From positions 73,710,659 to 73,774,658 of the forward strand of contig CM049313.1 in NCBI GenBank assembly GCA_026874595.1: DNA of 64,000 bases. Reading direction: 5' to 3'. Under the pieces are notes generated by a model, which ran no database searches, was not told the DNA's origin, and was given only the letters and a program-made list of their open reading frames with translations. The translations under genes were made by a program, and so were the position numbers. Source of the stretch: Sipunculus nudus (taxonomy: Eukaryota > Annelida > Sipuncula > Golfingiida > Sipunculidae). Shown in pieces: positions 4,961-63,671 of this stretch; the first letter of the stretch is position 1, and every line of letters begins with the position of its first letter.

Positions 4961-4969
4961 TGGAGACCT

Positions 4970-6134: not shown

Positions 6135-6189
<55 letters not shown>

Positions 6190-6600: not shown

Positions 6601-6702
6601 TTGGCACTGTGAACAACAGTTCTATGGCTATAGCATAAAATTTAATAATTAAAGAAAATATCTACAGAGAGACAGAGGCGTTGTAACTCTGATCATAACA
6701 CC

Positions 6703-6720
6703 CCCCCCCCCCCCCCCCCC
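6703..6720. repeat. C homopolymer
   Basis: About 18-19 consecutive C, preceded by a short A-rich stretch. A comparable short run occurs near 5368-5377. Confidence 0.9.
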
Positions 6721-7533
6721 AAATCAAGTAATTGCACCTGTGGAGTGGGGACGTTATGGCAACTGTATACATATCATAAAATTGATAAATAAGGTTTCCC
6801 AAATAAATTGGATCTCATCAGACAAATGTGTAAACTGTTGAACTGTCAACAGCTTATCAAAATGTAACCAATGGAAAGGCAAGGTCAGATCTCAAATATT
6901 ATTTGCAACATTTTCTTCAAACATATAAACCAATCATGGCCCAAATTACCTATTCCTCTCAAACTTTATCTACATTTCATCATATTTTTAATATTTTAAC
7001 CTTCTAGGTGGTTCAGTACTGTTGACCATTTGTCCATAGGTACCTATGTACATGCCAGAAATTATGTCAATATTGTATAATATGTAGACGTGAGGGTCAT
7101 CAAAATAATGTACCTTGTCAAGACCGATCTTGTCAAGATATCATGTCATACAGTCACAAATTCATAAATCCCCTCATCAGCATAGTTTTTCATAACCTTG
7201 TATCTGTCAAATTGAAATCTTGCAGTTTTTCATACACTATAGATCCTTCAACAAATGGCCTTATCATCATTATACCACTGCTTAGTATACTGTCATTGAA
7301 TTCATATTAGCTCAAATAAATTGTTTTTTTCGAACCCTTCCAAATAAATAAAAAATAAACCACTTTATTTTTCTCCATATTAATCCATCAGTCAGATTAT
7401 TTCATATATCATTTACTCACATATTACATTATATCTCTTTATAAAAGCCCAACATGACCATGATATTCATAAGCTTTTTCTACTTAATATAGTATAACAA
7501 TGGTGATACATTTATAGTCCAATCATGATCAGC
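6721..7533. other. No gene seen
   Basis: AT-rich, with no long open frame and no recognised repeat apart from the short direct repeat CTTGTCAAGA near 7115-7140. Confidence 0.55.
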
Positions 7534-10854: not shown

Positions 10855-12092
10855 GAACTTGTCTTTAATAAGTTATATGACTACATGTTGGAAAATAACC
10901 TGTTGAATCCATATAATTCTGGATACAAGAAACACCATAGCTGTGAATATTTACTGGTTAAACTGTGCCATGATATTTACACAGGATTTGAGAGAGGATA
11001 TGAAACCAGGATGGTCTGTCTCGATGCATCTAAAGCTTTTGACAGGGTCTGGCATCACGGATTAGTATATAAATTAAAATCATTAGGAATCGAAGGATGC
11101 ATCTTAACATTTATTATAAATTACCTGAGTCATAGGCGACAACGTGTTGTAATTCAAGGACATATATCAGAAAGTTTGGCAATCAATTCCGGCGTTCCCC
11201 AAGGATCTATTCTTGGCCCTCTACTATTCCTAGTTTATGTCAATGATATTCATCTCGGCTTAGAAAATAATATATTAATATACGCCGATGACAGCTGTAT
11301 TTATTCATGCAAAGATGACCCCAGAACAGCTGCAGCTTCACTCAATAGGGACTTGGAACGTCTAAGTAGCTGGGCTGGAAAATGGTATCTGAAATTTAAC
11401 GCAGAGAAAACTCAGACAATTTGTTTTTCTAACAAGAAAAGGAACATTTCACGACCACCATTGTATTTTATGGGACAGAAACTGACTGATACAAGTAGTC
11501 TGTCATATTTGGGAGTCACCTTAACTGATTCATTTTCCTGGCAGGAAAACATAAACATAATGTTTTTGAAAGCCAGTAAACGTTTGGGAATTTTGAAATA
11601 TTATAAAATCCATTTCTCTATGAAAGTCTTAGATCATATGTATAAATCATTAATATGGCCAGTACTGGAGAATGATAATTTAATATTTAGCAATTGTTCG
11701 GTCAGACATATCAACTAGAGAGTACTCAACGGAAAGCAGCTTTAACATGTACTGGAGCGCTCTCGACTACCAGCACTGGTGTTATGTTAAAAGAGTTACG
11801 ATGGTCAAGTCTAAAAACAAGAAGAGAGCAGGCTATACTATCAGTATTATATAATATGGTTAATAGACATGCTCCAGATTATCTGCTTAATATAATACCT
11901 CAAAATCTGTATCACGCTCAGCCTTACAGTCTGCGCAAATCGCATTTGCTAAGGATACCGAGGTTCATATGGAAAGACTGTCGCTCTTCTTTCCTTTCAA
12001 CAGCCTGCAAACTCTGGAACAGTTTCCCAGTTCCAATAATTCAGTCTACTTCAATAGACTCTCTTAAGAAAAATGTGCATTACTGCACGTAG
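10855..12092 (+). pseudogene. LINE reverse transcriptase fragment with a frameshift
   Basis: The open frame at 10855-11718 encodes a reverse transcriptase core. Motifs in order are CLDASKAFDRVWH (about 11020-11055), GVPQGSILGPLLFLVYVND (11191-11250), YADDS with the catalytic aspartates (11281-11295), FNAEKTQ and YLGV. It stops at 11716-11718. Matching C-terminal sequence (ESTQRKAAL, then LKELRWSSLKTRREQ, then CKLWNSFP) continues in another frame up to 12092, so a single indel near 11690-11705 broke the gene. The endonuclease and fingers are missing: an in-frame TAA precedes 10855. It is a 5'-truncated, inactive CR1/Jockey-type LINE, different from the one at 1-2248 and in the opposite orientation. 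It encodes no host function. Confidence 0.9.
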
Positions 12093-30977: not shown

Positions 30978-31700
30978 ACATTGTTACAGATGTCTTTTTT
31001 ATTATGTGTGACACGGGCGTAACTCGTGTTGTAGCGGCCTCGCCTGGCCGGGTGTTGCACTCTCAGTTTAATCCGTACTGGTTGAACTCTCGCTGTCAGC
31101 TTGTCTGGGGCTTTCTCGCCTGGCCGAACGGGACCGGCTAACGTGTTAACCCTGACATGTATAGACACAGCGTTCTTTTTCCAAATGTTTCCTGTAACGC
31201 GTGTGTACTGTGTATCATGTTAGATTCTTTGGATTTTTCGAGAAATGGAAAGTTCTCGGCTTGAGATGAGGAGCTATATATAGGGGCTGTGTTACAGAGC
31301 CGACGGAGAGGTGAGAGAATATTCCAGCTTACACAGAAGCGTGTAAGTCAGTTTGTGGGACCTATTCCGATAAGTTCGGCAATTATAGATTTTCTACTGG
31401 ATTTGTGACAGATCTCAGGAACTTCACTTTGGGATTATGGTGGATTGATTTTGTGAATGAACTGGACTGTTATTCTCTGAGAGGATTTGTGTGAACAGTT
31501 CATCTGGATTATGTGCTTTGAAGGATTTGTCGCTGTGACCGGTGGTATCCAGGTACTGTGCACTTTGTTTATTAGGCTGTGTGATTGTATTGATTTGCTG
31601 TTGTACTGTTGTTGTACTGTGTAATTGTTTTGATTTTGTTTATTGTAATGTTAGGGTTGTTTTAAGAATAAAACATGGTTATTTGTTAGCAAAGAACCAC
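30978..31700 (+). mobile_element. LTR-like repeat, copy 1
   Basis: A ~720-bp block that matches about 33760-34455 in the opposite orientation. It starts near TGTTACAGATGTCT, has a TATA box in GCTATATATAGGGG (31273-31286) and a polyadenylation signal AATAAA at 31667-31672, about 385 bp further. That order (U3, TATA, R, poly(A) signal, short U5) fits a solo LTR of a retrotransposon. No gag or pol sequence is adjacent. The ends are not confirmed: a clear TG...CA with target-site duplication was not found. The alternative is the long terminal inverted repeat of a ~3.5-kb foldback element. Confidence 0.6.
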
Positions 31701-31834
31701 TGACTTCGTTGTTTATTCCCCTAGGCATTTCACGCTGCCTAGTGTTGCAGAATCTGATTTGTGTGTGTGTGTGTACACTCAGACAAGGTAATGCATATTA
31801 AGCCCCAATACTCCCCGAGTTTAAAGAATATATA

Positions 31835-31841
31835 TATAAAC

Positions 31842-31901
<60 letters not shown>
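31835..31901. repeat. (AT)n microsatellite
   Basis: Near-perfect (AT)n, preceded by (GT)n at about 31760-31774. Confidence 0.95.
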
Positions 31902-31904
<3 letters not shown>

Positions 31905-32159
31905 TATGTATATGCATTTATATGAATTTTTACTCGGTCTACGGTTAAAGTACAGATAGGTGCCGTGGATAACAACAGTAACTATATGTATAGACACACT
32001 AGACTTCTATATAATCGTTTGTGTTATCTTGCGATAAGGGGTTAAGTGGGTTTCCATAGAATCAGTGTCAGACATGCCACAATCCAACGTGAATACACCC
32101 ATGGTCATTGAAGGTCTTTCTCTGGCATTAACTCATGTAAGGTTACCAAATATAAAGTT

Positions 32160-32257
32160 ACATATATATATAATATATATATATATATTCTTATTAATAC
32201 TCTTTCAATCAGGATTTAAGTTTCATTTGTATATAAATGATATATATTGCACCCGCA

Positions 32258-32342
<85 letters not shown>
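32160..32342. repeat. Interrupted (AT)n microsatellites
   Basis: Three (AT)n tracts separated by short unique sequence. Confidence 0.95.
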
Positions 32343-32344
<2 letters not shown>

Positions 32345-33759
32345 TAAGCACAAAGTAGGGTTAACTTCCACATAAGGTTTTTAACTATTGAAAAAAGTAT
32401 AACCTTTAATTTCCAGAGTAGAAAAATAAGTATACATCATCTGCTTAAAACAGATTTTAGCATCTCTATGCAGTGGCTTGATTCAGAATATGAGCTAAGG
32501 AACCTCCTTTGATATTATGAATTCTTTTCTGTCTTATCTTCTATCTCTACCTAGCAAGACCCAGATCCAGGATACAGAACTTTCCTTACTTTCTCCGTTG
32601 GGGAATGGGAGACGTATGTCTAGACATGCAATAAATCATGCTCTGCAACCAATTTCTTATCGTCTCACAACTGAAAAAGACCAATAAAATATTACCCGTA
32701 CTTTTTAACCCACTCCTTAAACCGTGAGGGGGACATGTCCCCGTGTCCCCAGCCCCCTAGCTGAAACGAGGCAGGTGGTAACCAAGGTTACATGTAGGAT
32801 GATTTTATTACGCTATTACTGTAACGCCGAAAATCAGGTGGTTTTCTCAGACACATTTTTTCACAAATCAATGCATTTGGGGGGGGGGGGCTTATTTTTT
32901 CAACTTTTTTATTATTACTAACAAAAGGATTTTTTTCGCAATTTTGTCATTTTATTTTGGCTGCAGCTAAAAATCAGTAACTGTAAATCCAAATATATTT
33001 AGTTGATGTGGGTGGTTGTTCAAAATTGATGTGCTGGTGCCTGAAAAGCTAGCCTATTTATTGGTCTTATCAATGCTATACATAGGCCCCCCTGTAAAGC
33101 CCCCCAGGAAACAAATTTCAAATACATAGCGGCCACATTCACTTGTGCATGAAATATGACTCTGCTTGACTGAACGGACGGTCAACGACCGAAGCTCTAA
33201 TATATTCAAAAACACGCAAAGGCCGTTTGGTGGTTGAACCCACCGTGCATAGGTCAAATTATACACTAATATGTCTACTCTTTGGGCAGCTTGTGTTACA
33301 TTAAATTTTCCTCACAATGCACTCTGCAAATATACAAGTTCTATGACCTCCACGGAGAGATATGTTAACTATATATATATCATGTGTAAGGAATCAAACG
33401 ATTGTAAACATCGTGTTTACTAATTAGTTTCGTACCGTTGTACGGTACTCTTCAGAACGGTATGATTGAAGGGGTTGTACATTGAACAACTGGTTGTTCA
33501 CTGGAGCGTGTTTGTGGTTATTACAATGTGGATTTGTACAACGTGCCTAATCTGGATTACTCTTTGTGCTGAGTTTACGTAACAGGAATTTGTTAGCGTG
33601 TCTACAACTTGTTACAAGTTCATTTCGTTTGTTAAGCGTGGCCATGTTTTGTTTACATAAAATGAAATATTTCTCCCACAGGCATAAGTTTCATCCGTTA
33701 ATTTCTGGGGGAATGTGCTTTGGCTTTTCTGAGTATTTTCCACTGTATTTCAAATTTGA
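32343..33759. other. No gene seen
   Basis: Spacer between the two inverted LTR-like copies; a G run at about 32880-32890. No gag, pol or transposase frame is present, which argues against an intact element here. Confidence 0.55.
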
Positions 33760-34455
33760 CGTTCTTTTTGGTTAACAAATAATTATAATTTATTCTTAAA
33801 ACAATCCTAACATTATAATACACTAAATCAATACAATTTCACAGTATGACAACATTAGAACAGCAAATCAACACAAGTAATTAAATAAAGTGTACAGTAC
33901 CTGGATACCACCTCTGTCAAAGCGACAAATCCTTTAAAATGCATAAACCGGATGAACAGTTCTCACAAACCTTCTCAGAGAATAACAGTCCAATGTAATC
34001 ACAAAATCAATCTACTGTAGTCCAAAACTGAAAATCCTGGCAGTGATCCGAAAGGTAAACTGAAGACTATATAAAATCCGTCATAAATTTGAAGAAACTC
34101 TCTAACTGCTGCATGTATCGGAAAAGGTCCAACTCTTCTGTGTCCGCTGGAATATGCTCTCACTTGTCTCTCTCGGCTCTAAAACACAGCCCCTATTCAT
34201 AGCATCTCATCTCAAGCCGCGAACTTTCCATTCCTTGAACAATCTTAAGAACAATACATAATACACAGTACACACGCGTTACAGGAAACATCTAGAACAA
34301 CATCGTTGTGTCTCTAAATATCAGGGTTCAAACGTTGGCCGGCCCGGCTCGGCCAGGCGATGCTGTCCTGTCAACGAGCCATATGCGTGCTACACGAACC
34401 AAATGTCAACAACACATAGAACATCCCTGCACATAGACATCTGTAACAATATATA
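33760..34455 (-). mobile_element. LTR-like repeat, copy 2 (inverted)
   Basis: Reverse-complement partner of 30978-31700. On the minus strand it runs TGTTACAGATGTCT (about 34440-34450), CGCCTGGCCGAGC, TAACGCGTGTGTACTGTGT, a decayed TATA region (GCTATGAATAGGGG, about 34187-34200) and AATAAA (33789-33794). Divergence is about 20-25 % by eye, so the copies are not from one recent insertion. Confidence 0.6.
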
Positions 34456-37837: not shown

Positions 37838-38062
37838 AAAAATATTTATCTCGAGATTTCGAGATAACATTTCGAGATCTCGACAGAATTTCGCAAAAAA
37901 AAAATCTAGCAAAAAAAAAATTTTAGAAAGCAAAAAAAAAATTTTAGGAAGCAAAAACAAAAATTTAGGAAGCAAAAAAAAATTTTAGGAAGAAACAGAA
38001 AAAATTTTAGGAAGCAAAAAAAAATTTTTTAGGAAGCAAAAAAAATTTAGAAAGCAAAAAAA
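37838..38062. repeat. TCGAGAT palindromic cluster and A-rich minisatellite
   Basis: 37848-37882 holds several overlapping TCTCGAGAT/TTCGAGAT motifs. 37895-38062 holds about seven units of 20-24 bp of the form TTTTAGGAAGCAAAAAAAAA. Confidence 0.9.
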
Positions 38063-38066
38063 TAGC

Positions 38067-38188
38067 TTATGTACGGAGATATGTTTTGATATCGGTATCG
38101 TTCCGATGTTATATTTGTCCTAATTATTTTACAATGAACAACATGTGTTGGAATAAGGAATATATAAAACATATTAGCTAAGAAAATG

Positions 38189-38248
<60 letters not shown>

Positions 38249-38359
38249 ATTATATATATACACACACACACAGGTTCTCCTTTATATATTTTAAGTTTTA
38301 TTATTTATGATATTATGCGTTGTCAAAATTTATTTCTTTATAGATAAATGCGTTTTTAT

Positions 38360-38414
<55 letters not shown>

Positions 38415-38430
38415 ATATCATATCATAACT
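38067..38430. repeat. Fifth, partial unit of the dimeric tandem repeat
   Basis: It has TCGGTATCGTTCCGATG, CAACATGTGTTGGAATAAGG, ACAGGTTCTCC and GTCCATATCATA in the same order as the 35.3-36.5 kb units, with expanded (AT)n at 38196-38250 and 38364-38410. Confidence 0.75.
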
Positions 38431-38469
38431 ATATTTATAATTGTCTGTTTGTATGCCTAATTGTCTGTC

Positions 38470-38760
<291 letters not shown>

Positions 38761-38921
38761 TAATAATATATAGATATCAATTATATATCTTCTATATCAA
38801 TTATTTATATATTTTCTCTGACACGTGATATATATAGATAATGTAACGGATACAATGTGAAAAGTTTTTTCAGCACTCAGGGTCGAGTCAACAATTTTAT
38901 ATATATATAAAGAATTTAGAT

Positions 38922-38975
<54 letters not shown>

Positions 38976-39786
38976 ATGTATATTATATTTTATATGATTA
39001 TGAACCAATTAAGATAACCTGTTTATCCATAAAATATCCAATACTCATCTGAAAAGTAATTTTGTGTATGAGTGGACCAAAGGCCCACAAAGGCCTATAG
39101 ATCTAACTCCCTGCGCTCGCTGTGTTCATAGCGTTTCTCGTTTCTCAGAACTGGTCAGGCACCCATTGCAAGACAGAGAATGATTAGGGATTAAGGTGTG
39201 TCAGGTACGATCAAACATCAGTGACAATATCACATGTACCTGAGTAGCAGGCCCGGGCCAGGATTCGGCCAGTGATTAGAGCCTTGTGATCAAACCTCCA
39301 TGTCACAATAAAGGAATTTGTCGTTGTAGAACCGCGAAGAACATGCCGGCGATTGATCAAGTTCGAAACTCATTTCTGTTACCAATAAATAAACAGCTTC
39401 TCCTACATATAGTCCATATAAGTAACCATTTTGTGTGTTTTAATATATGCTTTCCAATAAGTCGTATATACTAGGTTTAAACACTTTTGAGAAATCACAT
39501 CTCAATAATATAAAGAACGAGCCAATTTTACGGAATCGTGCCATGGATTACAACGATGGTATATTTAAATCATGTTCAGTGTTTATTTCGTCATTTACTT
39601 ATTTGGTGATTTTTTTTCCTTCGTTTGAAAATGTGGCATCATAAGTACTGCTTTTAAACATTGGATTCTTTCATGCCAACAGTTAAAGCCTGGGATTATA
39701 ATATATTATATTCTAACTCATTCATGGACTATTTTCATGTTAGGATTTACAATTGGCATGAAAGAGAATCAACCCTTCCTTATTTT
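38761..39786. other. No gene seen; (AT)n at 38930-38973
   Basis: Anonymous sequence; frames of 62-85 codons without support. Confidence 0.55.
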
Positions 39787-40205
39787 TTAAAGGTGCCGAT
39801 TCACCTACCTTTGAAAAGAATTTATGTGATTTTTGGTTTTCTCTGTGTATATATAAATGATCTAAGGGTAATTCTGGTTATTAAAAGTTTTTATAAGGCC
39901 TTCGTGAAGGATGTATGAATTGTTTATCAACAAAGCAATGTTGCGTATATGTCGAGGTAGTAAAGGTCACTTGTTGAAAATGCCATTTGTAATGCTCTGC
40001 ATGGCTTATCGGACTTGCTGCCAGAAGCCCTTGTTGAATATGTTTTGATTATTTTAGCGGGCCACCAGATATTATAAACACGTTGATATAAACAAAACAA
40101 GCAGCCTGTGTGTGGTGATATCCATGTTTTCTGGCTTATTTTTATAAATGCTCCAAGGGATCACCTTTAGTTTATAAAGGTCAGATAGGCGATTGGGCCC
40201 CTTAA
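39787..40205 (-). mobile_element. TTAA-flanked MITE, family 1, copy 2
   Basis: 419 bp, inverted relative to 9178-9604. TTAA at 39787-39790 and 40202-40205. In element orientation it begins TTAAGGGGCCCAATCGCC and, from the other end, TTAAAGGTGCCGATTCACC, giving better-matched TIRs than copy 1. Confidence 0.85.
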
Positions 40206-41149
40206 AAGGGGAGGGCTGTGTCGTTACCACATTTCCCAAACAGCACAGTGTTTCGATCGTGTGAATTAACAAGCTCTTTTACATATGATAATTGTTCTAC
40301 TTTGTTTGGGAACGACCATACGGAATATGAGCTACTTCTCTACAAATGATAAATTTATCATCGTCAGATCTATACTTGTATAGTTAATATCCCACATGCA
40401 CTTGTTGAACACATGCGCTTGAATTGCTATTAGTGCAGATATATCGGCAAGATTTGTTATTTTCTGGGTCATTTCCTAATAACTAATACTTATCTGACAA
40501 ATTTTAGAATATGAAGTAAATTATAAAGAGATAGGCCATATAATGCGAAAAATACAAGGAAAATGTCAGATAAGTAAATAATATATAATGATTTTAATAT
40601 TCTTACTATTTACATCATATCTTCACCTAAATATGAAATACAAATAATTGTTGATGCCGTATACATTGTATTATGTGATCTATCTGTCTCGCCAGCTGGT
40701 TACCGCCCTATAGCTGAAAGCATTATATGGTTGGAACTTTTAAGTAGGTGAGATTTCTGTCCAATCCATGGCTTGGATTCACCAATTTTTTTAACAGGGG
40801 CGTTTTCTCGTCACTTTTAATGGGTCGGGAGGGTGTGTGTACTCATCCCTCACTTTATATTTACTTTTATACTTCTTATCAATTAGTTTTTAATTAAGTG
40901 AAAGTTTGAAAGATAACATAGAAATTTTTAGCAGTAAAGTAATTTCTGGAGATTTAATGACTTATTCATGTATAATGAGCTAAACGTCCCCCAAAGGCTA
41001 ACCTAAGACTATCTATCTAAAACTAATTCAACACACAGTATGGGAATGAAATAATGATCTAATTCTCTCCTCCAAGTAATGCACTGGCTCATGTAAATAC
41101 ACATAACACATACATATATTTTTATGTATATTTTTATGTATATACACGC

Positions 41150-41150
<1 letters not shown>
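40206..41150. other. No gene seen
   Basis: Anonymous AT-rich sequence. Confidence 0.5.

Positions 41151-41213
<63 letters not shown>
41151..41213. repeat. (AT)n microsatellite
   Basis: Nearly perfect (AT)n ending in TA directly before the CAGTGGGACC motif. Confidence 0.95.
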
Positions 41214-41215
<2 letters not shown>

Positions 41216-41290
41216 TGGGACCCCACAATAACGAACATCTTGGGGACTGACAAAAGTTCCACTGTAACTTAATTGTATCGTTCACACAGC
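41212..41290 (+). mobile_element. Possible pogo/Tigger-like transposon end
   Basis: TA followed by CAGTGGGACCCCACAATAAC, then TCCACTGTAAC and CGTTCACACAGCG. The pattern CAGTnnnACCnC at a TA site is typical of pogo-type DNA transposon ends. No matching right end was found within a few kb, so this would be a fragment. Confidence 0.35.
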
Positions 41291-42125
41291 GTGAATTCAA
41301 TACATCGCGGTGATAGTGCTCTACCGTAATGGAGCGTTTATAAATAATTAAAGTACGGTTAGTTTGTCTTCATCTGTTTCGTGGGAGCAACATTCAAGCC
41401 GGCTCACTCTTCAGGTACAAACTCGAGTGAACAGATATCTGGGTGAAGTTTATCATAATAGGTAGGATTAATCTGGGGGTTACTAGGTTCGGTGAGGCAT
41501 GTATTTAAAAGTTTTTGTTATGTTTGTGAATGGGGGTTAGTGGGTGCCTGGCTTATTGTACTGTATTAGGACTATTATGAAGCGTTCGAGGATCTGTTTT
41601 ATATACTAGCTGATAGACCCGGTATACCGGGCTTATTACTGGGGTTGGGGAGCTTTATTAACAAGAGACGTGAAATGTTGGCTCATTTTTTTATTCTAAA
41701 AGTTAACAGAAAATATAGGTTTTCAGTGGGAAACTGTCTCCATAAGATATGTATAAAGGTTTCAGCACGCCTGCAGAATAACTCACGCACCTCTCTGAGG
41801 CACAACACTTCTGTTAACAGAAAACGTTTCTATGTACAGCTGCTTGTATCTTAATTTTGCTACTTATTTTAAATTACATGAATCCTTAACATCATACCGT
41901 CCGTCTGTATAAACTCAAAACCCGGATGGAGACAGTGCGTGAGTGATCCTGCAGTCGCTCCAATATTTTTAACATTTATTTTGTGGGGCTGTCCTCGTGG
42001 CAAGAAATTTATACCCCGGTATGTTTACCTTGATGACCTGGTCAGTGATGGTGCTGACATTGCGAATTCAGGTTTTCGATGATATTTGACTGGATTCTAT
42101 AGGTGGACGTATAAAGATATAGGTT
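41291..42125. other. No gene seen
   Basis: Anonymous. A short palindromic stretch GACCCGGTATACCGGGC lies near 41617-41633. Confidence 0.5.
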
Positions 42126-42144
42126 CACTCTAAAAACTGAGGAC

Positions 42145-42790
42145 ATGTTTCATGTTTCTATTTAAAACACTATTTTGTCCCATTTTTCGAAACATGTTTC
42201 CAGCATGTTTCATGACTCTTGCACTGATGTTTCATAGGCCAAAACATGTTTTTAATCCTCTTGAAACATGCTTTTATATAAAACATGTTTCGCAAACGGA
42301 GAAAATTTCATGGACAGTAAGGTAAAACATGTCTCTTTGTTACATGTTTTTATATGAAATATGTCGCATATAAGACATGTCTTAAGACATGTTTCATTTT
42401 TCATAAAACATGTAACTATCTAAAACGTTTGTTTAGCCTAAAACGTGTATTTGTCCCATTTTTCGAAACATGTTTTCTCCTTAGAAACATGTTTTAAACT
42501 AAGAGTAAAACATGTCTCAGTGTTACATGTTTTTATAAAAAATATGTCGCATATAAGACATGTCTTAAGTCATGTTTCATTTTTCATAAAACATGTAACT
42601 ATTTAAAACGTTTGTTTAGCCTAAAACGTGTATTTGTCCCATTTTTCGAAACATGTTTTCTCCTAAGAAACATGTTTTAAACTAAGCGTAAAACATGTCT
42701 CAGTGTTACATGTCTTTATATGAAATATGTAACATATAAGACATGTTTTAAGACATGTTTCATTTTTCCAAGGAAAAATATATAACATTT
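42145..42790. repeat. Subterminal AAACATGTTT repeat, ~183-bp units
   Basis: Units starting CATAAAACATGTAACTAT occur at about 42402 and 42585, with a partial unit before and a decayed one after. Each contains CATTTTTCGAAACATGTTTT, AAACATGTTTTAAACTAAG, a TTACATGT block and ATAAGACATGTCTTAAG. Many positions are self-complementary. Confidence 0.85.
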
Positions 42791-45700
42791 GCCCATCAAA
42801 GGCACATTTGCATTTGCATCATGTCTCAAAAATGTCTACAAAATAAAACATTTTGAAAAATATTTAAGGTCACAGAAAATGTTATTTGTTGTTTGTCTTT
42901 TTGGTTTGATGCAACCATTGTGAAAACCTGACGATTCGCTTATGATGAAAGAACTCACAAATTTACTGGATTGGATTGCATAATACAGACCTATATCAGA
43001 AAAGGTCAGGTTAATGATATTTGAAATACACAGTTTTGTGTAAGTCTTCTTTTATAATAGATGTAGTCATGCACATCAAGAGCAACCTAACTACTATTTA
43101 CATGACAGACCATGATTAAGTAAGATCAGATTTATTTAGTATATATTATATCTGTTGTCTGCATGTAATATTTATCATATCAATACTGATTGTACCAGAA
43201 CTGGTACAATTTTGTCTTCCCCATAGCTGTATACACAAATATTATGAACTATGAATTACAACAATAATTAATCTAGCAAACCAAATCTGAACTGCTGCAC
43301 AATGATTAACAAGGGACTTGTGGGTCATGGCGCTCAGCTGGAATTGGAAACGAAAATATCTGTATAAAATCCTAGTAAACGGAAATGAGGCAATATTTTA
43401 TGTTTTATTAATATTTTAAAATGTTCAGCATATAAATATACACTATATGCTCTACTGAGTTGTATTACTTACACATTTGGTGTGTTTGGTGTGGACTGTA
43501 CAATTTTATGAACAACATGAAAGATGCAGGAGCCTCCCATGATCACACATTTGTATAAGTATCAATATTTCAACTAGCTGACCGTAATATGCATGTAATA
43601 ATACCCACTGGGACTGTATGAAACCCTTTGAAATATGTAATAAGGAAGAAAGTGGAGGTGAGCTAAAGGATAATAATACACATTTAATTTAATAATTGCA
43701 ATAAGGTAAAAAGTTTGGTGATGAAACGATCCATTTGATTAAGAAAAAACTTAATAAATAAATATTTCTAAAAACTGGTTAACATATTGCCAGTTTAGCT
43801 AAAAATGAAATAATTTGAACGTTTACTCAATATACCTGATTGCGAGCACCAGTGTTATGCACACTAATGCCTAGCTAGATAAAGGGATTTGAATGAAATT
43901 CTATAATGTATACACCCATTTGCAAGTTTTATTTCAATATTTTATTTCAGAAATTTCATTTTATTTAGGAATTCAACTTAGTTGACAATTCAAGAGAAAA
44001 CAGATACAAAAAAATTAAATAATGGCTCAAAGTAGTTGCTCTCATAGCTTTAATTTATTATAAATAAAGTTAAACCTATTACAATTTACAACTGAAAATT
44101 TAAAATACAGCTTGTAGAAAACAGGCATTTAATTCTAAACACATAAAATCCAAGGAGTCTTAGTCAGGGAGCTAAAAACTGTAAAGTTGAACAATTATTT
44201 TATAAAAACCTCTTTAAAAGCTGCACTTGAATTTTCTAATAGCTACAAGGACATTTTAGTGTATCATTTCAAATATTTCTTAACATTAACATTTCTTTCT
44301 TCTTTCAAAAGAAATTTTGAAGCATGCATTTTGTTTACGAGTATTCAATTTTTATATGGACTATAAATTCCTTTTTTATATATTTTTTTATATTGGACAG
44401 TTTTCTAGAATCTGACTAAACACATCCTGAAGCAGAAAACAACTTAGGATTACCTGCATAATATCTTTTTTTATAAAATGCAAATTATATGTACCGATAC
44501 ATTAAATTTTTGCATGCACTGTGTATAACAACTGCAAATATCACAATTATATTAAGTTGACTGTATAATATTTTATATGTTTTAGAAGGTAGCAACACTG
44601 ATCTCAGATCTTGAAAGAGCATTTACATAATTAAGACATGCCGATACATTCACTTTCAGTGTTTCTAGCTTCAGTCTGACTGCAGCAAATATTTACAGCC
44701 AAAAAGTGTAAAGTAAAATGCAGAAAAGACTGGCATCAACAAAGTCTCCCATGACTGAAGATTTCTCAGCAATGCAGCATAGTTGAGAGGCACATCAGCT
44801 GCTACTCAGATTAGTGTATCACAAGAATCAGAACAATACTGAGAGCACCTTAATTAAACACCTAATATTTTCATAATACCAAATCCTTGGTTTGTATTAC
44901 TTACATAAAAATTTTAATTTGGAATCCTAAAACAAGGCCCCTGTCTGTAAATACTTAAAGCTTCATAAATTTACAATAATGCAATTGACCATTACAATTA
45001 AATACTACAAATTACCATATTGCCATATACAGCCTGTACCATCACATATGGAACATTAACATAATCACAAGATCAGTGCAAATGAAGCCTCATACAAATA
45101 ATGAAATACATGATAAATCATAAATCATGAATGGTACAAGATTAACTAACTGCTGTATGTTCACAGTGATTCATCATACACTGTGACACTTAACTTTTCT
45201 AAAAGTTGGTAAAATTCAATTACCATAAAAAAGAGTGAAACATTTTACATATGTGAATACTGAAATTCTTAAAAAATTTCTTAGAAAATATGAAAAATAC
45301 TAAGGCTGTAACAAAAGAATCAAATACTAAATTATTTTAATGCAGCCACAAACTGTGGAAGAAGCTTGTAAGAAGTTGACTTGTCCTTGCAAGACACTTT
45401 ATTTTCAAGACACTCTTCCTGAAGTGGGTTGAAAGGTTGCATGTATTGTGCTGGGTAAGCCTAGAAGCAAGTATGAGGTTTTCCATACTGAACCATTCTT
45501 CAATAAATATATGTTCATGGAGTCACTCAAAATAGCACTTAGACCTCACTTCTCCATTGTCTTTGATATAACAGGTGTTGGTTCTGTACCCTCTTGTGTA
45601 CAAAATAAATCTCCTTTGACAGCTTTCTGAATAAAGTGTAGCAATTGATTAAAGCTAAATGGTATTATTTGCATGTTGAGTTTGGAGAAAAAGAGAAAAT

Positions 45701-46215
45701 ACTATTAACTGTCAGCAGCACAGCTGACAATTCTTCCATGCCGCTGCAAGGAATACAATGACATCAACTAGATATTGACACAAGTCTAACAAGAATTAAT
45801 AACAGCTATTTATATGGAGGGTTCTTTATAAAATGAAAATGTCTACTTCTCACATTTTATTCAAATACTGTTTACACGAGGTAACATAATGATAATATTT
45901 AAGAATGAGACCTCTAATAGTTATACCTTTCTACTGTAATAATATGTATCTGTTGCAAGCATCTATTATTTATTTATTCAGTGGCATTGACAAGAACAGA
46001 ATAAAAACATCACATGTACTATATATTTAATTGAGGATTAAAAATATATATATTTTAAATATATTATATGCAAATATGCTAACAACAAAACAACAACTAA
46101 TACCAAATATTGTACAGGAGGGAAAAATTTGCATATTTGTGTAAAAATCCAAAATTTGGATAAAGTGAAGCAAGAATTGCTTAATTGAATATTCATAATA
46201 TGCCCTAATTCACTC
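42791..46215. other. Interior of the putative element, no gene recognised
   Basis: About 3.4 kb of AT-rich sequence with no microsatellite and no long frame. The inverted partner of the 7.53-kb short repeat lies at 43306-43340. On the minus strand, ATGCAG|GTAATC near 44450 resembles a splice donor, but no coding exon could be assembled. Confidence 0.45.
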
Positions 46216-46239
46216 CAACTTGGGTAATCTGGAAACCAC

Positions 46240-46915
46240 TAAACCACCAATACCACCCATATACCCACATCCATCCTTGGTACCCTGGAAACCATACCAC
46301 CATCAATTTTTACCCATCCAGCCTTGGTATCCAGACCAGTCCCAGCACCAACACCCATGTTCACACATCCAGCCTTGGTACCCTGGACCCCATTCCACTA
46401 ACACCAATGTACTCATCCAGCCTTGTTACCCTAGATCCTAGTCCACTAACACCCATGTACACACATCCAGCCTGGGTACCCTTGACCACATTCCACAAAC
46501 ACCTATGAACACAAACACAGCCTTTGTACCCTGAAACCCAGTCCACCACCAGTCATGTATTCACACATCCAGACTTGGTATCTTGAATCCCATTCCACAA
46601 GCAACACCCATATACATGCATCCAGCACTGGTACCCTGGACCCTATCCCCCTCCACTACCAATGTTCACACATCCAGCCTTGGTACCCTGGACCCCATTC
46701 CATCCACCTCCATGTAACACATCCAGCCTTGGTACCCTGGACCCCATTCAACCATCATCCATGTACACACATCCAGCCTTGGTACCCTGGACCCGAATCC
46801 ACAAGCACCACAAATGTGCACACATCCAGCATTGGTAACCTGGACTCCATTCACACATCCGGCCTTGGTACCTTGGAACCCATTTCATCACCAATGTACA
46901 CACATTCATCCTTGA
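46240..46915. repeat. ~50-bp minisatellite, about 13 units
   Basis: Units share CACATCCAGCCTTGGTACCC followed by TGGA-CCCATTCCAC. Spacing is mostly 48-53 bp. Units diverge by 10-30 %. Frames of 62-135 codons cross the array on both strands because stop codons are rare in the unit; coding is not supported. Confidence 0.9.
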
Positions 46916-48104
46916 TCAGATGCATAAATTACCATTTTGTTAACTATGTACCCATGAGGTAGTGTTTGAACATGCTGCCTACAAATATGATACTGCACAT
47001 TGTTACAGGTTTTTAATTTGCTAATTTTATCATTCTAATCACAAATTACTTATGTCTTCCTTATTCATCTTCAAATGCTTTCTTTCAGTAAAATTGCCTT
47101 GAAAAATCTTACAAAATTATCTTTGCATAGCGTACTTCTTGAAACAGCAAAATTTTTATCACACGTCACATGTGATCAAGTGCTGTTAAAATAAATATCT
47201 TACCTACTGAGCAGTCTATACATGTAAACTAGGGTCCACAATGCTCGTTCCAGCATCTGTTCCTAAAGGTCTCTCAAAGATGTCTCACGGTTTTGCTGGA
47301 CTACATTGAATATTGTACAGTAGTTTCTAATAAAAAGCTGCTAATGATCACTTGCTTTACTTAAAAAAAAATATAAAAACAACATGTCAATTTTAAAGAA
47401 ACTTTTTAAAATATAAAAACACTCCAAATTCCAAAGACTGCTACAGTTATTAACATTCCTGCTTACCTGATTGCCCCCTCTTAAATGTACTTACTTGAAG
47501 GGGCATCAATATAGGGGGAGGGGGTCCTTCCCCCACCCTTGGAGATTATTTGATGCTACTGCTTAATTGTGTGCTGTACTCACATGGAATAAGTGCACTG
47601 GAAAGTCTTATATTCAGGGGCATATGTGTGTGTGTGTGTGTGGATGGGGGGTATCCCACTCGCTTTTGAAAACTAAAGACTTCTTTAGATCCCCCCCTCC
47701 CCTTTCCAAAATCCTGCACATAACCCTGTATAGGATTTGTCTACTTACTGTATTTGAAGGGTGGTTTGTACTTTCGCATGCATATTTATTCTGTTGAAGT
47801 AAAAATGTCGTTGTAATGTAAAAAAAGCATGAATAAGTGTTCTCAATGAGCGATATTATACATATACATATTGTTCACAAACTTAACGTTTGACTCGATC
47901 ACCTTTTAATTTCTGGCAAATTATATTTTGGGTTGCTACACTGCCTACAGGAAACCTTCTCTGCGCCCAAGACTGAACATCATCCAAGGTGGACTTGGTA
48001 ATTGCTCAAAATCACTTTCCGTTTTCTCGGGGGATTATATCCGGTCACGTGACCAGTGGCAAAAAATAACGGCAGTTAAAACAAGTAAAATGTAATTTCT
48101 CGCG
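46916..48104. other. Element interior, right part
   Basis: (GT)n at 47622-47642 and a C-run unit with CCAAAATCCTG at 47690-47720. On the minus strand there are several donor-like sites (AG|GTAAGA near 47202, CAG|GTAAGC near 47465). At 48040-48100 lie GTCACGTGAC and CGCGCGAG, a CpG-containing patch that could be a promoter for leftward transcription. No coding exon was identified. Confidence 0.35.
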
Positions 48105-48285
48105 CGAGACATGTCTAAAAACATGTATTACACATGTTTCACACATGTAACGACCTAACATGATGTTTCAATGGACCCAATTTTGAAAATAACGGTGAAA
48201 CATGTTTTGAAACATGTTTAAATTTGAAACATGTTTGCATACAAAACATGCTAAACATCATGTAAAACATCTGTGAAACGTCATT
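48105..48285. repeat. Right subterminal AAACATGTTT cluster
   Basis: About ten AACATGTTT/ACATGTTTC variants within 180 bp, mirroring 42145-42790. Confidence 0.8.
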
Positions 48286-48384
48286 TTTTAGAGTGTTAAT
48301 GTGAGGAACACATGAAAGATTAATTATATGTACGTTGCAAGGAAACTTTTCCTGAAGAAGGAAACAGAAATATGCATACATCGT

Positions 48385-48600
48385 AAGCAGCAGAAGCGGA
48401 CCCAGCGGGACTCCATGCAGTGGGTCAGTATCCCATTTTCAGCCACCGCAACCTTTTTTTCATCGTATCAGACAAATTTTGAGGCCTGAAACCCCCGCCA
48501 CCACCCTAGCCCTGGTTCTGAAATTGGGACCTTGAGTTAGGTTTTGTCATTAATCCTCCTGGGTTGAACTCTCCATTTCATAAAGTGAGAAACATGTGTT
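48385..48600 (+). repeat. Dispersed repeat with C run, copy 2
   Basis: Partner of 19985-20200; C runs are shorter here. It begins about 90 bp outside the right end of the 6.2-kb element. Confidence 0.6.
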
Positions 48601-49252
48601 TTTCTCTTTTACTGACCACGCAGGTGGATCAAATCTCTCATTGAAAGCAAACGTTATTCATATGAACAATAGTCCTTAGTGTTAGAGGTTAAGTGATCAC
48701 GATGCACGCATTCCGGGGATTGCCGAAGGCAGTTCGGCTGTGCTCGGTAAAAAACGGAAAAATCACTCAAAATTATATGTAAATTAAAAATTATTTATTT
48801 TCATATCGCCTATGTCACTGCGGGGATAATAACCTTTAAAATGATTTATGGCACAATATTGTACACAACGCGGTTTTAGAGAACATTGGGAACAAACGTG
48901 AACCGAATTCCTTTTATAAGTATTAGATACCTACAGCTGATGTATATCAGTGTATCTAAGAACTATTACTGGTCAAGGACCTTCATGCATACATAGGCGA
49001 TACATGCACCATGCACCTGTGTAGGAGTGGTCAAGGAACACGGACACAGCAGTGTTGTTTGTACAGTAGAACAGCAGTCCGGGCCTTCCTTCAGTCAGGA
49101 AAGGCTCTAATGAGAGTCAGAACAGTTAATATTTTTTTTTGGTCACTGAATCAGTGTCAATAATATACCAGTCGTGCTACTAAGGCATAACTCCTATATT
49201 TATGTACCAATACAGGTATAACTCTTCTGACACAGTTGTACGTTCTTGCTAT
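48601..49252. other. No gene seen
   Basis: Anonymous sequence. Confidence 0.5.
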
Positions 49253-49294
49253 TACTAATTATTATCATTATAATAATAATTATTATTATTGTTA

Positions 49295-49334
<40 letters not shown>

Positions 49335-49362
49335 TAATCAAATAATAATAATAATAATAACT
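49253..49362. repeat. (ATT)n/(AAT)n microsatellite
   Basis: (TTA)n followed after a short gap by (AAT)n; the two parts are partly complementary. Confidence 0.95.
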
Positions 49363-50382
49363 AATAAAAACAAAAATGAATGATTCAATAAGAAAATTGA
49401 ATTAAAGTAATATGAAAGTGTGAAACTCATTAGAAATATTTACAACATTTATTCTATTAACCCCGAATACTACTTCATTTATACTAATTATTGCTAATAC
49501 TATGACAGGTCGAATACTAATATAGTAATAATACTATGTGTCGAATCAGAGGGAGAAACTCTTCCCTCATGCACAGGTGATCGGACTCCATTCCTGAATG
49601 TTGACTGAATGTTCGGGCTTCATGCATTTAAGAAAAGGCGTGGGCATCGGCCTTCATTCCGTAAACTGTAAAAAATAATTCCCTTTTATATCAGGTTATT
49701 AACGACAGACAGTGCTGGATTTAGGCGGCGGGAGGCCCTGCATGGGCATCTAGACCCAAATAATCAAAAAGGAAAAATTTTTCCTTAAGTAATTGCCTGA
49801 AATTATTTCATTGACAAAAGAGCCATTTATACATTAATTACACTTAATAATTTAACAAGAGTATGGTATTAATAAGGATATTCATAGCTGCTCAAGTCTC
49901 TACATATAGTCATTTCACTGTTTCTGCATGTATAGCCCAATTTCCATGCAAATTTATCAATGATTTTTATCAAAATCTGTATCTCGTACAAATCTCAGGC
50001 ATGAACCTTAATTCGATCTGGTTTGGTATCATTACAAACGAAATAAATGAATGGAACATTTTAATTATGTAAGCGGGAAGACGAGGCCCCAAGTAGATTG
50101 TTGTGATCCTGGGCTGCAGGCCGCTCAGACCATTTGTAAATCAGGCACAGGTAACAGACAGAAAGAGAAACAGACGAACGGCCGCTCGAATGCACAGTCA
50201 TAAAGAAAAACATCGAAAATAGAGGGTATCTGTATTGAAAAAGCATAAATTTGTAATGAAGTTTAACAATTCTACAGGCCTATATTAAGACATAAAGACA
50301 TATTTCCTTTAGTGGACAGGGAAGTGAATAATGGCCTCGAAAAAAACATACATATTAACCTTGATACATACCAAGTCAGTTC
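49363..50382. other. No gene seen
   Basis: Anonymous; frames of 60-69 codons without support. Confidence 0.5.
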
Positions 50383-50672
50383 TTTATTTTATTGGAACAA
50401 ATACAGGATATAACAGTCAAATAACCAGTTCTTTGGGTCACATGGCCAGAAAATCCGTCCTGACCTGCTTCCGTTTCCGACTACCCTTATTAGCTGGTTT
50501 GTCAGCTTGAACCTGGATAGCCAGCATACTACAGAGGGAGGCGCCGACAATAATCCTTGTCCCAGACCCATCGTTTCTCTCCTTTGTGTAATAATTTGCC
50601 CATGAGACCCTTCATCTGAGCAAACCGTAAGATATCAAGAGCCAGTATGGTACTTCTCGCTGGATTAATACG
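50383..50672 (-). CDS. Candidate terminal exon of an unidentified gene
   Basis: On the minus strand a splice-acceptor-like CAACCTTGTTAG ends at 50673. The frame then runs from 50672 to a TAG at 50529-50531: 47 residues, including ILALDILRFAQMKGLMGK, an amphipathic helix-like stretch, and HKGEKRWVWDKDYCRRLPL at the C-terminus. A 3' UTR of about 150 bases follows, with overlapping AATAAA signals at 50383-50393. The combination of acceptor, open frame, stop and poly(A) signal in the right order is what a last coding exon looks like. I do not recognise the protein. An alternative frame (stop TGA at 50438-50440, ending KRKQVRTDFLAM) is also open across most of the exon. No upstream exon was found; if the gene is real, its intron spans the plus-strand frame at 51.0-52.4 kb. 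Confidence 0.45.
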
Positions 50673-51032
50673 CTAACAAGGTTGCCTAGTGCAAGTAGTT
50701 CAGATGATGTTTGCCTGATTTTCGCTCGGCACGCTGCCCGCCCACGGTACAAGTGTACCGCTCCCGATACCAGCCTCATCACGTTTGGGGGCCGCTATAT
50801 TCCGGTCCAGATAGCACGCAACTGAGGTTAACTACTAGCATTGTGCTGGGCCTGGCTCATAATATAGCAGGTGCCCAAGGGACCTACACTGCTATCATAT
50901 ACACCGCGTTGTCTCGCATACAACATCTAGTTAAGATAGTGTGCGGAGTCCAACGAATTCACGTGTGAATCAACTTAGTAGGACTTTAATCGCAAACGCT
51001 TGGGATATTAATTTGTTTTCACGCCAGGAAAG

Positions 51033-52373
51033 ATGTTTCCGTTATGGGGACCGCTCTGTGTTGACAACAGGACATTTATGGAAATGCCTAACCGTGACAA
51101 TCAGTGTTTTACTTCAGGTGGGCTCGTGATGCCAGATACCCCTGTCAGGTCTGCAGGAGTTCATTTTAATCCACAGCAACATGACATTGTCCGTCCAAAG
51201 CAAACATTGCCAAACCAGATACCCGACCTCATCAGGGCAACGGACATGGAGATGAAAAGACCTGAGAAAAAGACGTCCATTGTCGGGAAATCCAAAGGTA
51301 AGCGCAGACACGCTTCAGCCGCCAGCGAAGAAGCTTGGCAGAGCTTTGTTAATGATCTGCTACAGCACAGCCACAAGAAAAGGACAACTCAAGCAGTTTC
51401 CGGGCCAACAGTCCAGCCATCAGGTCAAGAAACAGTTATGCCAGCAGTGACTCACTTGAGTAAAGAGAGGCTGTCACCAGGAAGATTACCTGAACGCGCA
51501 GTGCCATCAAACATTTTATTATCCCGACCACAAAAACATTTTCCGTTAAAATCAAGAGGCGATTCCCACTTGTTCCATCCTTATAGAATGTCCAGCTCTG
51601 GGATAGCCCAAGAAGAATGTGACATTGTACGACCAAACCTGTATGTACGTGATCTATCCCCGAGAAATTCTGACGGAGAAACAGAATATGAGACCATCAG
51701 GAGCGGAAACAACAGTGAGTATTCAGATGGTGGTGGTGAATCTCCTACGAGTGCAGTTTCAGAACAGTCCCACATGTTTGACAGGACAAACGCGCTCGAT
51801 TTGACAATGCCAAAGGCAAGTCGCACCGTCACAAATGGTACAGAAAAAGGACAAATACTTTCCAACTCAAGGTGCTCTAGTGTTGATATACGTTATAGCC
51901 GCCACAGCATTGAGCGTCCTTTGCCAGCCTTAATTCCAGAAACAAGACATTCCAGCCGTATTGGTCGCCCAGAATGCCAGCAGTATGGGACAAATACATG
52001 TTGCACTGCTGATGATCGAGGGCCACCGGCTCTGATACCCATAGCGGACTTAATCGAAGACGAGTCGCCAGTTTTAACAGAGTCACCTGTTTTACGTCGT
52101 GAGGAACCTTTAATGTCCTATGCTGCCCTACACGAGAGAAAAAGAACAGCAACTGTAAAGACAACAAATGACTCTGAATCCATAAAACATGATTATTCAG
52201 CTTTTACACAATCCGGTCGTTTCGACGCTTCTGCTTCTAAATGGACAAATGTGAGTAACCTAAGATACCCCGAAAGGTGTCCAAATACTGTGGAAACAGC
52301 GAGTAAAATCTCTTTGGCGGGTATGGCAGAAATCATAGTAGAAGTGGCCTTAAAAAGCAAGACAAATGTATGA
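51033..52373 (+). CDS. Uncharacterised 446-residue protein or terminal exon
   Basis: This is the longest host-type frame in the window and is clearly less AT-rich than its surroundings. An in-frame TAA lies 24 bases before the first ATG, so 51033 is the earliest possible start; a splice-acceptor-like TTTACTTCAG at 51109-51118 offers an alternative beginning of the exon. The protein is hydrophilic and probably disordered: Ser, Thr, Pro, Arg and Glu rich, with no signal peptide and no membrane segment. It has a basic cluster KSKGKRRH (residues 86-93), a helix-like AWQSFVNDLLQ (101-111), an acidic Ser-rich region (212-240), ALDLT (254-258), which resembles CtBP-binding PxDLS motifs, and short internal repeats DIVRP (51, 197), PALIP (298, 332) and SPVL (345, 351). 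This suggests a nuclear regulator, but no family is recognised. AATAAA signals follow about 490 and 520 bases downstream. Confidence 0.65.
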   Translation: MFPLWGPLCVDNRTFMEMPNRDNQCFTSGGLVMPDTPVRSAGVHFNPQQHDIVRPKQTLPNQIPDLIRATDMEMKRPEKKTSIVGKSKGKRRHASAASEEAWQSFVNDLLQHSHKKRTTQAVSGPTVQPSGQETVMPAVTHLSKERLSPGRLPERAVPSNILLSRPQKHFPLKSRGDSHLFHPYRMSSSGIAQEECDIVRPNLYVRDLSPRNSDGETEYETIRSGNNSEYSDGGGESPTSAVSEQSHMFDRTNALDLTMPKASRTVTNGTEKGQILSNSRCSSVDIRYSRHSIERPLPALIPETRHSSRIGRPECQQYGTNTCCTADDRGPPALIPIADLIEDESPVLTESPVLRREEPLMSYAALHERKRTATVKTTNDSESIKHDYSAFTQSGRFDASASKWTNVSNLRYPERCPNTVETASKISLAGMAEIIVEVALKSKTNV

Positions 52374-53590: not shown

Positions 53591-54975
53591 TCCCCGGACA
53601 TGATTTCATGACGGTATCGCCGCTGCCGCCGCCGCATATAAATATTGATAACTCAAAATAATATTTCATCGATCTTTACCAAACTTGGTATATGTATAGA
53701 TATGGGTCAGAGGACGACGCCTTTTCAAAATGTGGACATGACCTTTACTAGGAGTGTGTCCTTGACCTTGAATAGGTCCAATTTTGGGGGAAATCACACA
53801 AATTCTTGAATATCTCAAGAAAGATCATGGATGGGGTTGTCATGTTCCAGATACTGGTGGCGCAACCTATTATTCTTTACTTGTTTTCGTGCCTTTAAAT
53901 GCCCCCAAAATTGCCACTTGACAGTACTGTGAGCATTATAAGTCAAGAACTAATGGACAGATTTCTTTATATAATGCATATACATAGATATGGGTTATGG
54001 GATAATGTTAATTTAAATTGGGGTTATGACTGTTCCCATGAGAGTGGCCTTGACCTTAAAAATTTTTCCCATATTTGGTAAAATTCACACAAAATCTTTA
54101 AAAACCTCAGTAAGTGATACATGGAATAATTCAAAAATCAAATTTACCGAAGAAGAATGTAAGAATTTGAGGTACAGTCACCAAACCCACACGCTTGATG
54201 CATCTTATCAACGGCTAGGTCAATTTCGAACATGGAGGACCTTGACGCATTTTTTCAAGGTCACAACAGCGATTATGCTAAAATGATATTAGGGCAATAA
54301 CTTTGTAAGAATTTGTGGTACAGTCACCAAAGCTACAGTTTAGATGCATCTTATCAAGGGCTAAGCCAAGTTGGAATATGGGTGACCTTGATGCATTTTT
54401 CAAGGTCACAGAGGCGATAATGCTGAGTTTGGTAAAGATCCGTGAAATATTTTTTGGGTTATCGCGCCAACAAGGTTTATATGCGGCCACCTTGTGTCAT
54501 TTTCTTGCTTTTGCACCTGTTAATACCCTACCATTGCCACTTGACAGCGCTGAGAGCATGATCAATTGAAAACTGAAGGACAGATTTTTTTAAATCTGGG
54601 ATTGTTTTGTCTTTGTGTTATTTTCTTGCTTTCGCACCTTGTAATACCCCACCATTGCCACTTCATAGCACTGTGAGCATGATAAGTTGAAAAACTAATG
54701 GACAAATTTCTTTCATATCATGTATATAGACATGGATTACGGAATGAGATATATTTCAATTTTGATTGTGACCTCTCCTATGAGAGTGACCTTTACCTTA
54801 AATATGCCCATACTTATAAGAAACCATGGTGGCTTGCCAAGTGTCAGTCTCTGCATCTGAATTCAAGATGGGATCCTATTCTTCGAGGCTGGGGGGAGGG
54901 GGGGGGGATTAATTGTCTGGGGATACTATGGCACCTGCGACGCCAAGATATATCTAGTTCAAACTTGGCTTGTGT
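53591..54975 (+). repeat. Field of diverged tandem repeats
   Basis: Two kinds of block recur. One has CATTGCCACTTGACAG or a variant, then GAGCAT-ATAAGT, AACTAATGGACAGATTTCTTT and ATAGATATGGGTTA (near 53912, 54530 and 54652). The other has ATTTGTGGTACAGTCACCAAA, GATGCATCTTATCAAGGGC, GACCTTGATGCATTTTTCAAG and GGTCACA (near 54165 and 54310). GGTGGCGCAACC at 53857-53868 is close to the palindrome of the 7.7-kb array. Several 60-94 codon frames are repeat-derived. G run at 54897-54908. Confidence 0.75.
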
Positions 54976-63045: not shown

Positions 63046-63204
63046 CTATATTTAAAATCAATCCAAAAGAGGTTTGTATTCATAAAAGACCCCAAAAAGT
63101 ATACATTATTTTAAACCTAATACAGTGATCTCTCTGATGGTATAGATATTTTATATATTTTCCTCCATTTTCACATGATTTTTTAACATTTATTTTTTTT
63201 AATT

Positions 63205-63545
63205 CAAAAGGTACGCTATAGTAAGTAACAGTACTTCACTTTTCCGTGGACTTATATATAACTACATGATAATACCTGAAAAAAAACATTCTGTGTTCAC
63301 TCTATCATGTTTCTTTCTTATCTAAAACTAAAATTAAAAATTTATTCAATTTAAAATTTTAAATTTCAATTATTTTAAAAGGTACGCTATAGTTTGTAAC
63401 AGTAAATGACTTTTTAGTGGACTTTAATAATACAACATGATGATATCTAGATAAAAAAAAACTTTCTTGTGTTTACACTGTCATGTTTCTATCTAACCTG
63501 AAACTGAAAATTAAAAAATTTGATTCAATAAAAAAATTAAAATTT
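63205..63545. repeat. Two tandem ~172-bp AT-rich units
   Basis: Both units contain AAAGGTACGCTATAGT, GTAACAGTA, TTTT-GTGGACTT, ACATGATRATA and TCATGTTTCT followed by CTGAAACT or CTAAAACT. They start at about 63209 and 63381. Confidence 0.8.
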
Positions 63546-63671
63546 CATTTTTCAATAAGAAAAGACAAAGTAGTTTGCCTGGAGATGTAACCACTCTCGT
63601 CCCCATTAGGCCGGGGCAAGCACCGGACTGGACAGCAGAACTGTCCGATAATCAGCAGCAGCAAAAGTTTA
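63546..63671. other. Short spacer
   Basis: GC rises from 63575; this may be unshared upstream sequence of the repeat that follows. Confidence 0.4.

Follow-up and report, generated by a model that had tools for sequence, protein, structure and literature searches.

A window of 64,000 nucleotides of the Sipunculus nudus genome (contig CM049313.1, positions 73,710,659 to 73,774,658 of the forward strand) contains a 6.2-kb candidate element at window positions 42126-48295, with inverted CACTCTAAAAA tips and an array of palindromes just inside each tip. The best reading of this anatomy is one element with facing tips and subterminal binding-site arrays, and it is probably a single old, non-autonomous cut-and-paste DNA transposon, a reading to which we give a probability of roughly two in three. 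The most likely type is CACTA/CMC-like, which is used here as a working label and not as a family assignment. The original prediction had proposed such an element from its ends; the tip-bounded structure with subterminal arrays stands as the best fit, and its being a transposon is retained as a probable conclusion from that anatomy. The case rests on the combination of features described below, as the tip alone is weak.

Element ends

As had been predicted, matching tips face each other 6.2 kb apart, with CACTCTAAAAA present as an exact sequence match at 42126-42136 on the plus strand and at 48285-48295 on the minus strand, and these two are its only exact copies in the window. In the 150 nt that lie outside each array, beyond its outermost CATG, no exact inverted match is longer than this 11-mer tip; when 150-nt pieces of the window were paired at random, 25 of 2000 pairs (1.25%) had an inverted match of at least 11 nt. 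A long inverted terminal repeat was rejected, the inverted repeat proper being the tip only (11 bases without mismatch, or 15 of 17 with two mismatches allowed). The distance from the outer end of the tip to the closest CATG is 18 nt on one side and 33 nt on the other. The exact tip occurs on the outer side of each array and nowhere else in the window, which argues against two separate small elements.

Subterminal arrays

The left array (42138-42770) has 27 CATG-centred sites and the right array (48107-48266) has ten, the first four of which are spaced 12, 11, and 11 bp apart. When these 37 sites were laid on both strands they gave RARACATGTYTY, a 12-bp palindrome with 15 strict copies on the left and one on the right. 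Exact copies of AAACATGTTT number seven in the left array, three in the right, and none elsewhere in the window, which upholds the claim that both arrays carry one palindrome otherwise rare there (10 of 10 exact copies in the arrays). With up to one mismatch, 31 copies were found in the window against 8.55 expected, and none of 100 shuffles reached 31; when each array was shuffled 1000 times with its dinucleotides kept, the observed AAACATGTTT count was never reached. ACATGT occurs 21 times in the left 645 nt and seven times in the right 216 nt, with maxima of 4 and 2 in windows of the same size outside the element. The motif also extends outwards: immediately beyond the decamer stands a purine in 25 of 28 flanks at the 14 sites fitting RRRCATGYYY, and in 42 of 52 flanks across all 26 CATG sites, repeated units being dropped from both counts.

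A host-genome sample of 18 stretches (172 kb, or about 0.01% of approximately 1.4 Gb) was used for comparison. Neither exact AAACATGTTT nor, on either strand, the exact tip was found in this sample, and none of its 645-nt windows holds more than three copies of ACATGT, compared with the 21 of the left array.

Units of about 183 bp, predicted for the left side only, were found there as 2.5 tandem copies with 94% matches (42318-42768, plus strand). Alignment of the right array to the doubled 183-bp unit and to the whole left array scored 116 and 114 in direct orientation and 96 and 112 in inverted orientation, while 1000 motif-kept shuffles of the comparison had their 95% point at 93 and a maximum of 112. 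The two arrays thus share similarity over and above the motif, with direct orientation giving a slightly better fit than inverted. On these scores the arrays are not one long inverted repeat. Helical phasing of the motifs is weak (vector length 0.17-0.24 for 25 spacings at four periods).

Interior and CpG depletion

The interior (42771-48079) contains no recognised protein, and a six-frame Pfam scan with stops read as X and E values up to 1 returned no family, in agreement with the earlier observation that no transposase is recognisable. A PDB sequence search with the three minus frames of the interior gave a single match, to RGLG5 (E 0.22); narrowed to 45500-46000, the search gave RGLG5 at E 0.011 and two further chains at 0.32 and 0.33. 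The RGLG5 match is attributed to chance, because it is short and runs across stops and because the region was picked after the first match. The longest stop-free stretch, of 158 amino acids, lies in a minisatellite of about 50-bp units (46254-46884, plus strand), and outside the minisatellite the longest is 86 amino acids. A search of the window against Rfam gave no matches.

The interior is depleted of CpG. Maximum-likelihood ends place a depleted block at 42,941-47,760 (likelihood ranges 42,660-43,380 for the start and 47,620-47,880 for the end). Its observed/expected CpG ratio is 0.14, compared with 0.76 for the remainder of 38,000-52,000 (log-likelihood difference 38). CpG is not depleted in the arrays (0.88 and 1.12) or in the flanks (0.78 on each side). 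Across 43,001-46,000 the observed/expected ratios of TpG/CpA, taken kb by kb, are raised to 1.25-1.43, the window as a whole having 1.15; the next kb after 46,000, which takes in the CA-rich minisatellite, reaches 1.69. A second strongly CpG-depleted block lies near 4,751-7,500 (0.03-0.18 in 1-kb windows), so such blocks are not peculiar to the element.

Mosaic methylation is established for invertebrate genomes, and the CpG content of the host is mosaic, as expected from this. Among 17 sampled 10-kb stretches (L012-L028), six have CpG ratios of 0.18-0.38 and eleven of 0.59-0.97; a further sampled stretch of 2 kb (L011) has 0.73. The interior therefore bears a scar typical of the CpG-poor stretches, in surroundings that belong to the CpG-normal class, and this scar is read as a mark of long germline methylation. 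The interior may be either a unit of the element itself that was long transcribed and methylated, or captured host gene-body DNA. Beside the right array, a CpG-normal strip (47,880-48,080, minus strand) with a GGTCACGTGACC palindrome would be a possible promoter of a leftward-reading unit.

Capture of host DNA from a methylated gene body, perhaps together with the promoter in this strip, would make the element Pack-type and is compatible with a non-autonomous transposon. The CpG loss, the TpG/CpA excess, and the mosaic genome are all consistent with it, and Pack-TIR elements are known in animals (PMC8277862). However, no coding match was found (Pfam in six frames, PDB in the minus frames), the median length of captured stretches is 224 bp, much less than 5 kb (PMC8277862), and the same scar would be expected if a transcription unit belonging to the element had been methylated. 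Capture is accordingly regarded as possible, although somewhat unlikely.

One element or two stretches

The structure might also not be one element at all but two unrelated motif-rich stretches, a satellite-like unit on the left and another on the right, with a tip match arising by chance. The confinement of the 183-bp tandem unit to one side suits this account, as do the single strict 12-mer of the right array, the 1.25% rate at which random 150 x 150 nt comparisons yield an inverted match of at least 11 bases, and the lack of a second copy in the host sample. Two unrelated stretches would nevertheless have to share the same rare motif, to bear tips at both outer edges pointing inward, and to enclose between them a CpG-poor block. 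Such a coincidence is unlikely, and one element remains the preferred reading.

Resemblance of the arrays to p53-family sites

The array motif resembles the binding sites of p53-family proteins. Neither this resemblance nor the CpG-poor interior figured in the original prediction. For the p63 DNA-binding domain, structures have been solved with AAACATGTTT and with a 22-mer made up of two such half-sites and a 2-bp spacer (PMC9091270). In the right array, AAACATGTTT-TG-AAACATGTTT at 48198-48219 (plus strand) is one base away from that crystal 22-mer, with TG for TA in the spacer (PMC9091270). AAACATGTTT is also the half-site of the worm ced-13 site, in which two copies stand 28 nt apart; this site was modestly active with Cep-1 in yeast and inactive with human p53 (PMC4323202). 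Among transposons, the zebrafish element EnSpm-N6_DR carries p53 sites, with half of 27 tested sequences responding, while EnSpm-N1, -N4, and -N7 have none (PMC3485254).

Counts of the p53-type decamer RRRCWWGYYY agree with this resemblance. Within the 861 bp of the arrays lie 21 of the 30 decamers of the window (14 with repeated units dropped), where the density in the sampled genome would predict 0.17. All ten decamer pairs of the window with spacers of 0-13 are in the arrays and none is in the host sample, so that the paired decamers of a p53-responsive element are present, judged by sequence alone. Sites of the type WWAC[A/T]TGTTT, obtained for p63 by systematic evolution of ligands by exponential enrichment (SELEX), are likewise concentrated, with 15 of the 20 in the window falling in the arrays.

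The arrays could therefore be imagined as response elements of a host p53/p63/p73-family protein that would switch on or restrain the element, for example in DNA-damaged germ cells, while the transposase may read other sequence. Several details speak against this. The core is CATG in all 21 array decamers, while the 34 decamers of the sampled genome comprise 15 CATG, 14 CAAG, and 5 CTTG, and the nine of the window outside the arrays comprise 6 CATG, 1 CAAG, 1 CTTG, and 1 CTAG. Of two p63 SELEX studies, one prefers A/T-rich flanks and the other a CGTG core (PMC9091270), and none of the five RRRCGTGYYY sites of the window is in the arrays. The motif extends one base past the decamer, a feature that is no part of the p53 consensus. 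By our own arithmetic, 16 of 1024 perfect 10-bp palindromes (1.6%) fit RRRCWWGYYY, which makes coincidence easy given the large number of known factors. Other factors also bind ACATGT, Iroquois being one. Together, the CATG-only cores, the lack of RRRCGTGYYY, the extra base, and the readiness with which such a match can arise by chance speak for recognition of the 12-bp palindrome by a single dedicated protein, in the simplest case the transposase. Response elements of a p53-family protein are considered decidedly unlikely.

A bolder form of the idea would be that the transposon has made both of its ends into dense p53/p63-site arrays, through which a guardian of the germline against DNA damage would gate or restrain its expression and movement; we consider this very doubtful. 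Among the matches listed in open-licence papers, subterminal p53-type arrays in a transposon were not found beyond EnSpm-N6_DR, and of those listed for p53 with EnSpm and subterminal, none was on the topic by title.

Type of element and points against

A cut-and-paste transposon of CACTA/CMC-like type would work as follows. A transposase made elsewhere would bind the palindromes as a dimer, and with so many sites both ends would become loaded with protein and the tips drawn to each other. The tips would then be cut and joined into a short target, with duplication of TT. The interior would consist either of host DNA that was captured or of defunct sequence of the element, and long germline methylation would account for its lack of CpG.

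The flanks and termini allow this type. TT adjoins the left tip (42124-42125) and the right tip (48296-48297), a possible 2-bp target-site duplication; the flanks agree at 2 of 2, 1 of 3, 0 of 4, and 4 of 8 bp, and nothing of 3 bp or longer is intact. The termini read CAC..GTG, and so have the CA..TG form of CMC/CMCT. CMCT-clade elements have CA..TG ends in most cases and duplications of 2-5 bp (PMC12730594), and animal CACTA relatives make 2-bp duplications (PMC1636069, PMC4298943). The superfamily, which had been called unknown, can be narrowed to this extent, since the termini, the possible 2-bp duplication, and the subterminal arrays point to a CACTA/CMC-like element, although without proof. 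As no transposase was recognised, the element is not filed in a superfamily.

A number of observations weigh against this reading. With one mismatch allowed, CACTCTAAAAA has four matches in the window against 2.17 expected, and 23 of 100 shuffles reach four, so that its sequence by itself is not rare and its placement is what stands out. The right array is thin in the strict 12-mer, and 4 of 1000 shuffles of that array also yield one strict RARACATGTYTY. The tip reads CACTCT and lacks the canonical CACTA core; CACTA-type tips usually have A or G at the fifth base, where C is found here. EnSpm elements combine CAC..GTG ends with 3-bp duplications (PMC12730594), which are absent here, and animal CACTA relatives have CCC tips, unlike this element (PMC1636069, PMC4298943). 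The agreement of TT with TT would occur by chance in about 7% of cases at the local base composition (our own arithmetic). The right flank reads TTAA, the target of piggyBac and Kolobok. No DDE transposase with C(2)C and H(3-4)H motifs was found among the six frames (no Pfam family), although a missing transposase is expected of a non-autonomous copy. Finally, neither end of the element has a blastn match in the host sample, which is too small to exclude hundreds of copies.

Two other cut-and-paste types lack their target-site duplication here. A TTAA element (piggyBac or Kolobok) fails on the left, where the flank is GGTT and 0 of 4 bases agree, and a hAT element would leave an 8-bp duplication, of which 4 of 8 bases agree. 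Comparison of the left end with phage records gave no match at E values up to 0.001, and of ten stretches of viral contigs having the tip plus the motif, none had an array. A separate search of viral contigs for the triple motif gave no hit. A literature search with the tip and motif as letters returned no transposon paper by title among the matches listed. In the host sample, the interior has one match (in L021), of 33 bp at 88% and E 1.2e-4.

Other features of the window

Elsewhere in the window, a reverse transcriptase of, by our reading, non-long-terminal-repeat type lies at 10855-11718 on the plus strand (RVT_1, E 4e-27), and the end of its frame is overlapped by an open frame at 11691-12092 (plus strand) with no Pfam match. 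At 31116-34360 there are paired blocks in inverted orientation (203, 124, and 112 nt, with 81-84% complementarity and a spacing of 2.1-2.8 kb), which may form another element, one with long terminal inverted repeats. An open frame of 453 amino acids at 51012-52373 (plus strand) has no Pfam match, and short tandem arrays are present at 54158-54424 (146-bp units) and 63199-63547 (171-bp units).

Significance and comparison with known systems

If the arrays are transposase sites only, they provide a well-marked end structure with which an autonomous partner could be sought in the host genome. If a host p53-family protein were to bind them, both ends of one element would offer a physical entry point to the question of how p53 proteins come to restrain transposons, a subject reviewed in PMC5031199. 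The CpG-poor interior among CpG-normal flanks may in addition provide an inexpensive way to flag DNA that was captured, or was once transcribed, in genomes with mosaic methylation.

Compared with CACTA/EnSpm and the wider CMC (CMCT) group, the element is alike in its CAC..GTG ends, its possible 2-bp duplication, and its repeated short motifs inside both ends, the last being also a feature of plant CACTA elements. It is unlike them in its CACTCT tip, its palindromic motif, and the absence of a 3-bp duplication and of a recognised transposase. The hAT elements (Ac/Ds, Hermes) combine short tips with subterminal motif clusters, as here, but the present tip does not have the usual hAT form, and the 8-bp duplication is missing. 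The piggyBac Kenshin family, with tips of CACTAGA, shares CACT at the tip, and TTAA follows the right tip here; the tips part at the fifth base (PMC4298943), and the left flank, GGTT, agrees with TTAA at 0 of 4 bases. Pack-TIR elements likewise hold non-transposon-like DNA between transposon ends, although the interior described here is far longer than their 224-bp median (PMC8277862).

EnSpm-N6_DR, likened here by description, differs in scale, being 346 bp long and present in 210 copies of two sites each, while the present element is 6.2 kb long with 21 decamers at its two ends (PMC3485254). The response of its sites was measured (PMC3485254), whereas a response of the present arrays would be a prediction from sequence. 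The two are alike in that EnSpm-N6_DR is also non-coding, is assigned to EnSpm, and carries decamer pairs that fit RRRCWWGYYY (PMC3485254).

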